Origin: Lota lota
Lineage: Eukaryota; Chordata; Actinopteri; Gadiformes; Lotidae
Assembly (NCBI GenBank): GCA_026745465.1
Contig: JACYXH010000129.1
Coordinates: 2,582,501-2,646,500 of the forward strand
Length of the DNA stretch: 64,000 nucleotides
Direction: 5' to 3'
In this document: positions 58,601 to 63,575 of the stretch, piece by piece
Position numbering within the stretch: the stretch's first letter is position 1
How the letters are laid out: each line of letters opens with the position of its first letter
The notes under the pieces: generated by a model
Told to the model about the DNA's origin: nothing
Seen by the model: the letters and a program-made list of their open reading frames with translations, nothing else
Databases searched by the model: none
Program-made: the position numbers and the translations under genes

Positions 58601-61600
58601 GTGTCGATCAAGGTTTCAAATCAACACCTTGTTGCTTGTGGCTGCTGCAGAAATAAACGTCCTAAGTCCACAAATCTCAAAGCTTCAGCCACTCGTGCAA
58701 ATGAGTTTCTCTTCGTATGAAGTCTCCCTAATGAAGCAGGATACGAGACGTAGCTGGGCTCTGGCCCAGGCTCTGTGCCCCCCCCCCCTGGAAGTTCTGC
58801 CATAGCGTAGTAGGACTGCTGGATCCCCTATTGATCTCCCTCAAACACCTTCACCTCTCCAGGGGGCGTGGAACACCAGATGTCGGCTGCAGAACAAAAA
58901 CAAAGTCAAAACCTCTTGCGTAATTTAAAGAAAAAAACCTTCTCAAAATCTCAGGCCTCACCCAGAACCACAAAGACCCTAAAAAATCGGTTGTGTCCTA
59001 TTTGTTATGGCCTCTGTTACGCCCTGCCTCTCTGCTGCTGGTCCGCCTACCTGATTCACACGGCGAGGGAACGGGGACTGGAAATGTGTTGAGTTAGTTT
59101 GTTTTCTAATGTTGCAGATATCTTCATTCCGTCTCACGACAGCCTCATGGTGAACCTGAAGGACAGCCTGGAGGTGTGTTTATCACTCAATACATGCCGT
59201 ATCAATTAGTTTGTCAATCATAGCCTTCTCAATGCGTATGCAGACGGGCAGTTTGTAATTAATGTATGGTTATATGTTAAAGCCGCGTTACCCAGGAACT
59301 AGGAACCTTTAACTAGGTGCATCTCCACACCATGGTCTGAATTAAGTTCTGGGGACATTATTTTACCGTTTAGTCCCTTGAAATGTAGTTCCTGGGACTA
59401 AAAGTTCTGGATAATTTTAGTTTCTACTTTTCTACTTTTTAAGTGTGTGTGCGGAGCACAGCCTTGCTGTCACAGAAGCTTATTTCATGCTTCATTTGAT
59501 GCGTTACTGATTCCTCTTCCTTGCTCCTCATCCTCCTCCCTCTCTTCTTCCTCCCCCCTCTTCTCTCCTCATCCTCCTCCCCCTCTTCTTCCTCCCCCCT
59601 CTTCTCTCCTTAACCTCCTTCCCCTATTTGTCCTCATCTCTCCTCATCCTCTCCCCCTCTTCTTCCTCCCCCCTCTTCTCTCCTTAACCTCCTATTTGTC
59701 CTCATCTCTCCTCATCCTCCTCCCCTCTCATCTCCTCTTCTATTCCTCTCCCCCTCTTCCCCCTTCTCTCTCCCCCTCTTCCCTCCCCCCCAGCTGGTGA
59801 AGGACCTGCTGGCCTCCTTGCCCTCGATGTTCAGGGAGAGCCGGGAGACCCACAGTGCCCTGGGCCCCGCGCTGCAGGCGGCCCACCAGCTCATGTCCCC
59901 CACGGGGGGCCGCGTCTCCGTCTTCCAGACCCAGCTGCCCTCCCTCGGGCCTGGGCTGCTGCAGTCCAGAGAGGACCCCAACCAGCGCTCCTCCAGCAAG
60001 GTACTCGGACACACACACGCCATACATCAGAGCGCCCTGCGTTGTGTGCGTGCTTCTTACGGCATTGTTCACACATATGGTCGTGCCGCAACTTTACCGG
60101 TAATGTTGCGTCCAATGCAGGGAAATTAGCGGAATGGATTCGCCGGCATTACGATACCGGCTCCCATTCACACATCACCCCTATGCCGTTAAATTCCTGG
60201 CATGTGTTGCATGGGTGAAAGGGGATATAGACACATATAGCCACAAGCTTTGGTCACTCCATACACACTGCTCTCCAATAGCAAGATACAGGTGATACGT
60301 AGTGTAGCTGGTCAACATGTGGTGTAAACCTGTCTACCTCTATGTGTTACCATGTGGTGTAAACCTGTCTACCGCTGTGTGTTACCATGTGGTGTAAACC
60401 TGTCTACCTCTATGTGTTACCATGTGGTGTAAACCTGTCTACCTCTATGTGTTACCATGTGGTGTAAACCTGTCTACCTCTATGTGTTACCATGTGGTGT
60501 AAACCTGTCTACCTCTATGTGTTACCATGTGGTGTAAACCTGTCTACCTCTATGTGTTACCATGTGGTGTAAACCTGTCTACCTCTATGTGTTACCATGT
60601 GGTGTAAACCTGTCTACCTCTATGTGTTACCATGTGGTGTAAACCTGTCTACCTCTATGTGTTACCATGTGGTGTAAACCTGTCTACCGCTGTGTGTTAC
60701 CATGTGGTGTAAACCTGTCTACCTCTATGTGTTACCATGTGGTGTAAACCTGTCTACCTCTGTGTGTTCAGGGTGTTCAGCACCTCGGACCAGCTACTGA
60801 CTTCTATAAGAAGTTAGCTCTGGACTGCTCTGGTCAGCAGATCGCTGTGGACCTCTTCCTGCTCAGCTCCCAGTACGCTGACCTGGCCACCCTTGGTGAG
60901 ACACACACACACACACACACACACACACACACACACACACACACACACACACACACACACACACACACACACACACACACACACACACACACACACACAC
61001 ACACACACACACACACACACACACACACACACACACACACACACACACACACACACACACACACACACACACACACACACACACACACACACACACACAC
61101 ACACACACACACGTTCTTGTGGTGATACTCACTATGAGTACGTCTTCATACTGCGGGATTTGCTTCGGTCCAGGCTGGCCCAGATGTTGCACACGTCTGT
61201 GATGCACTATCTTATATTAGAAAATAATATAATAATAATAAAGTGTGACCGTTCCCTAGTATTTGTATTATTATTCATTTATTACAAAAAATTATAATTC
61301 TCTTTCGACAGAAGCATCAGCTAAATAAATGTAATGTGTGCGTGTGTCTAATATATATATGACACAAAATAAACCATATTCATTTATCTTATTCTAATAT
61401 TAACTCCTTTCCCACCTCTCCCTTCTCCCCTCCTCCCTCCCCCCCCCCCCCCCTCTGGTCCTCTTCTCTCCCCCCCCCCTCTGGTCCTCCTCTCCCCCCC
61501 CCCGGTCCTCCTCTCTCTCCTCCCCCCTCTGGTCCTCTTCTCTCCCCCCCCGGTCCTCCTCTCTCTCCTCCCCCCCCCCCCCCCCCCCGGTCCTCCTCTC

Positions 61601-63575: not shown

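Follow-up and report, generated by a model that had tools for sequence, protein, structure and literature searches.

An adenine-free 2-kb minisatellite ahead of a conserved sec24b exon in Lota lota, and a candidate distant branch site

Introduction

AG-free, pyrimidine-rich spacers with distant branch points at 100-400 nt are an established form of 3′ splice site, as described in two primary studies (PMC1431707, PMC7969005) and a 2023 review. Among human exons, PTB exon 11 has an AG exclusion zone (AGEZ) of 381 nt, nPTB one of 438 nt with a predicted branch at -389, and PTPRS one of 1,126 nt (PMC1431707). Exon 4b of OGDH represents the arrangement termed dBP/megaPPT, in which distant branch adenines are followed by an adenine-poor mega-tract (PMC7969005). 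Lengthening the distance between branch and acceptor is not free, since this exon was repressed in OGDH minigenes when MIR elements were inserted 3′ of the distant branch points; according to the same authors, tandem duplications are weaker competitors for branching than retrotranspositions (PMC7969005). Longer pyrimidine tracts are known within introns, for example the 2.5-kb polypyrimidine tract of human PKD1 intron 21 (PMC12574933). In the literature covered by our search, to which subscription papers mostly did not belong, we saw mapped branch points only up to ~400 nt and met no A-free tract of kilobase length ahead of an acceptor, which does not prove that such cases are absent.

Here, we describe an intron of sec24b in which the last 2,000 nt before the acceptor dinucleotide contain no adenine. 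Positions refer to the window, the whole 64-kb stretch of Lota lota DNA analysed.

Results

An adenine-free tandem array before the acceptor

The longest A-free run in the window comprises exactly 2,000 nt (61415-63414), and the runner-up 186 nt. It is bounded by A61414 and the acceptor A63415, so the claim of a first-pass annotation that the sense strand has no A between 61414 and 63415 is borne out. The run consists of C 1278, T 592 and G 130, with runs of C up to 26 and with every one of the 130 G sitting in a GG pair. It is a low-complexity tandem array, not a product of chance (Table 1). Among its 64 full units 33 are distinct, and the longest perfect internal repeat measures 232 nt and recurs 675 nt away. 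The sec24b array is accordingly a young, homogenising minisatellite.

A dispersed repeat was rejected as the origin of the array, as 31 of the 35 matches to its 19-nt core in the 575-Mb genome fall within it. Of the rest, three lie on contig C416 and one on C300, and the C416 array that carries the core has 26 A in 618 nt. On the strand complementary to the tract there are 13 G4-type matches. We found no stabilising RNA fold in the last 1,000 nt of the tract, which were less stable than 20 of 20 shuffles, and hence no structure shortening the path to the acceptor in this part, the one that was folded. Elsewhere in the genome, A-free runs, counted on both strands, reached 370 nt at most in a sample of 209,901 bases (22,500 of them N), made up of 18 stretches taken at regular intervals along one contig plus loci L005, L016 and L017. 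Adenine was present in 29 of the 30 pyrimidine-rich segments of this sample.

Table 1. Coordinates of the intron, its candidate branch sites and the flanking exons of sec24b (window positions).
Feature	Position	Strand	Remarks
Upstream exon, 124 nt	60772..60895	+	conserved junctions and frame; PDB Sec24B alignment
Intron, 2,521 nt	60896..63416	+	GTGAGACAC ... CTCAG
(AC)106	60901..61112	+	from intron position 6; TRF
TATTAAC, candidate distant branch site	61398..61404	+	sole TRYTARY of the intron; YTNAY closest to the acceptor
Polypyrimidine tract	61405..63414	+	93.5% C+T; A-free from 61415 on
Minisatellite, 65 GG-anchored units	61457..63414	+	52/65 units of 27-34 nt; last unit truncated by the acceptor
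Possible local C or G branches	63367..63401	+	YTNCY at -36, -31, -19 and -16; CTGGT (YTNGY) at -44; putative branch use
Acceptor CAG	63414..63416	+	first AG past position 61320
Exon after the tract, 159 nt	63417..63575	+	~residues 507-559 of the model

The gene and the exon after the tract

Our gene model covers the 3′ part of sec24b, the N-terminal exons lying outside it. Its 21 exons, with conserved junctions, give one open frame with a single terminal stop. The product has five Sec23/24-type Pfam matches above cut-off (zinc finger, trunk, beta-sandwich, helical and gelsolin) and scores 505.9 bits against human Sec24B versus 467.8 bits against Sec24A; by these matches we assign the gene as the SEC24B orthologue. 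The exon after the tract is the 13th of the 21. It connects the trunk match (304-543) with the beta-sandwich match (548-632), is present in the listed solved Sec24 chains, and shows a dN of 0.17 and a dS of 0.66 against the paralogue (52 codons). By these comparisons the exon is conserved and under constraint. The paralogue, on contig C367, has the same junction, its donor and acceptor meeting at the same place, with an intron of ~290 nt.

Branch sites available to the intron

The intron opens with GTGAGACAC and continues through (AC)106, ~285 nt of ordinary sequence, TATTAAC and pyrimidines to CAG. The donor (TTG/GTGAGACAC, 60895/60896) joins the acceptor in the SEC24 frame. A U12 intron was rejected, the donor being unlike the U12 consensus. 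The AGEZ spans 2,094 nt, whereas the other 19 modelled sec24b introns have zones of at most 462 nt; among the 20 introns with both ends known, the next longest A-free stretch before an acceptor after these 2,000 nt is 142 nt. Mega-PPT or distant-branch-point sites are characterised by a zone of at least 100 nt, greatly exceeded here, and by a good motif at its upstream end followed by pyrimidines, a position that TATTAAC occupies. In the known cases the exon is often, though not always, subject to alternative or mutually exclusive splicing.

The sequence GUAGUA of U2 pairs with the branch site, and TRYTARY denotes the motif able to pair with it throughout, G-U pairs allowed. The annotation had called TATTAAC an excellent branch match; its position was confirmed, and no other TRYTARY occurs in the intron. 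The motif directly precedes the tract, which puts the candidate branch A61403 at a distance of 2,014 nt from the exon; the 50 nt after TATTAAC hold 36 C and 13 T. The adenosine closest to the acceptor is A61414, in the context CCCAC, at 2,003 nt from the exon. For 25 nt of matching composition, TRYTARY is expected with a frequency of 0.06 and TAYTAAC with 0.007; the placement of TATTAAC at the start of the tract is therefore suggestive of a branch site, with 0.06 being weak evidence and no proof.

The dilemma that the annotation posed, of a branch ~2 kb away or at a nucleotide other than A, thus follows from the sequence. It had also proposed looking for recursive or intermediate splicing, which is excluded inside the tract by the lack of AG. 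Likewise, the intron contains neither AGGT nor a second GTRAG, giving no sign of recursive splicing and, together with the AG-free tract, ruling out a hidden exon. Near the acceptor, CC-type contexts 17-49 nt away, as expected of non-adenosine branches, are present, trivially so in a C-rich tract.

Other arrays near splice sites

Several further arrays lie close to exons. Within sec24b, (TC)71 (51817-51958) runs up to the exon 51961 acceptor and has CTGAC immediately before the repeat, which puts a branch A at -147; the layout described above recurs here on a smaller scale. Exon 59794 is preceded by an AG-free pyrimidine array that contains A. A 35-bp minisatellite (60316-60768, 12.9 copies), AG-free on the sense strand, comes to within 3 nt of the exon 60772 acceptor; GTAAAC occurs in every unit, possibly giving a row of branch sites.

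Outside the gene, a 781-nt AG-free pyrimidine minisatellite (L026 6015-6795; G000 C129:1250001-1260000) abuts a Spondin-2-like exon, with an AGEZ of 925 nt. Its units carry CTGAC, so no unusual branch is needed. Another AG-free pyrimidine array (22816-22965) runs directly into CAG and an open frame resembling a membrane-transporter exon, for which there was no family or structure match above cut-off. A 647-nt AG-free array (L028 2846-3492) is followed 15 nt later by an acceptor-like CTCTTGCAG, after which no exon was identified.

Splice sites themselves have also been multiplied. At 55661-55996, an 84-bp repeat (4.0 copies, 98% alike) includes in its unit the acceptor of exon 55969-56092 together with the exon's initial 28 nt, giving four copies of a 3′ splice site in a row. 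A 92-bp repeat of 5.4 identical copies (L004 702-1194; 64702-65194 from the window start) carries the donor of exon 64560-64733 along with the exon's 3′ end, giving five copies of one 5′ splice site.

Discussion

How is the exon joined?

On balance, and with little more than even confidence, we propose that an ordinary 3′ splice site had its polypyrimidine tract expanded by tandem duplication, becoming a distant-branch splice site of about five times the mapped lengths. SF1, U2AF2 and U2 snRNP would recognise TATTAAC and the pyrimidines directly after it, and A61403 would form the lariat. Step two would then take the first downstream AG, the old acceptor, 2,013 nt away. Array growth would have been tolerated because a unit adds neither AG, and hence no earlier acceptor, nor A, and hence no competing branch point. 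In this order of events, the splice site would have come first and the expansion later. In favour of a distant branch, the array is tandem-duplicated, its last unit runs directly into the acceptor, and nothing but non-AG sequence lies between 61320 and the acceptor. The length of the tether may also be no obstacle, given that human spliceosomes are able to join a 3′ exon provided as an RNA of its own. Against a distant branch stand the repression of the OGDH exon by insertions and the C-richness of the tract, U2AF2 binding such tracts less well than U-rich ones. A further objection is that a long exclusion zone created by a repeat may conceal an ordinary branch site, as in one example with a good site at -17 (PMC1431707); near the sec24b acceptor, however, there is no A to form one.

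The distant site is not obligatory, since C and G branches have been documented in 14 rat introns. It is therefore possible, if a good deal less probable, that the branch forms at a cytidine (or guanosine) lying 15-50 nt upstream of the acceptor, in which case the lariat would take in almost all of the 2.5-kb intron and be expected to resist debranching. In rat neurons, all 14 projection-enriched introns with circularly permuted reads used C (12) or G (2) as the branch nucleotide, and their consensus was CC at 17-49 nt from the acceptor (PMC6879206). CC is plentiful near the sec24b acceptor, where the YTNCY and CTGGT sites of Table 1 lie. However, the rat introns were found for being stable, which makes them uninformative on frequency, and an adenosine in a near-ideal site exists upstream in sec24b. 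Further, no C-branched lariats were reported in any of the OGDH orthologues (Kralovicova 2021, PMC7969005). Sequence alone cannot decide between the distant A and a local C or G. The annotation had inferred that so conserved an exon must be spliced; its conservation stands, but its length is divisible by three and skipping keeps the frame. Poor splicing, with some transcripts skipping the exon in frame (minus 53 residues) or keeping the intron and the array being a tolerated burden, nevertheless seems improbable for a constrained exon that joins two Sec24 domains and occurs in solved chains, even though the long polypyrimidine tracts of human PKD1 introns 21 and 22 reportedly favour aberrant splicing (PMC12574933, citing Lea 2018). 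We give slightly less credence still to an assembly error, by which the true array would be much shorter or contain adenines, with a normal branch point near the acceptor. Runs of C and perfect repeats of the lengths seen here are hard to assemble. Yet errors would be expected to add A rather than strip all of it, the number of distinct units shows that the array is not one looped unit, and the 3.13-Mb contig suggests a long-read assembly. Even one tenth of the array would leave ~200 nt without A.

Avoidance of A or of AG?

The absence of A needs no selection, because the array is young and homogenised. Assuming 3-13 private changes, 15-33% of them making A, the chance of finding no A is 0.005 to 0.61. 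Instead, AG may be what arrays beside acceptors must avoid. Of four arrays within 45 nt before modelled sec24b acceptors, three are AG-free on the sense strand, compared with 19 of 116 orientations of 58 other arrays (Fisher 0.019, suggestive only, as orientations are not independent and the count is small). The count comprised tandem arrays with a period of at least 10 and a length of at least 150, excluding those with N and one containing an acceptor. The exception among the four is a TG-rich array with 2 AG (57923-58089). Two of the 19 AG-free orientations are those already described beside the Spondin-2-like exon and before the CAG and open frame at 22816-22965; the Fisher value precedes this inspection, which covered the 19 AG-free orientations. 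The AG-free arrays before exons 51961, 59794 and 60772 and the Spondin-2-like exon hint in the same direction.

Implications

If the assembly is right and the exon is used, the branch would lie about five times beyond the mapped long-distance cases, or would not be an adenine. This touches two old questions, namely the distance over which the spliceosome can find an AG in the second step and its need for a branch adenosine, and to these the natural sec24b intron leaves two extreme answers. We consider it probable that a conserved vertebrate exon is joined here either via a lariat with a 2-kb tail or via an obligatory non-A branch fixed by repeat growth and that, either way, AG-free minisatellites located between the branch site and the acceptor may face hardly any limit on their growth, several such arrays being present in this genome. 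A testable rule is suggested: the repeats able to grow in a 3′ splice site are those without AG.

Comparison with known systems

The annotation held that distant branch points lie a few hundred bases away at most. A range of A-10 to A-400 in the 2023 review agrees with this, although one human AGEZ of 1,126 nt is listed with untested candidates out to -1079 (PMC1431707). The human distant-branch exons (PMC1431707) and sec24b share an arrangement in which pyrimidines follow the branch site, a candidate in sec24b, and the first AG is the acceptor; unlike theirs, the sec24b zone extends over 2,094 nt and is made of a minisatellite. PTPRS offers nearer adenosine candidates (to -171; PMC1431707), while sec24b has no A of any context within 2,000 nt. 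In OGDH, the AGEZ is ~280 nt and the branch points lie within 50 nt of the donor, enforcing mutually exclusive exons (PMC7969005). The sec24b loop, in contrast, would be 508 nt, and no exclusive exon pair was seen.

The C- and G-branched rat introns (Saini et al. 2019, PMC6879206) share with sec24b a CC-rich stretch 17-49 nt before the acceptor. Such branches were mapped in rat and are merely possible in sec24b, where no nearby A competes. PKD1 intron 21 resembles sec24b in having a kilobase pyrimidine tract within an intron, with triplex and G4 potential, as far as its published description goes.
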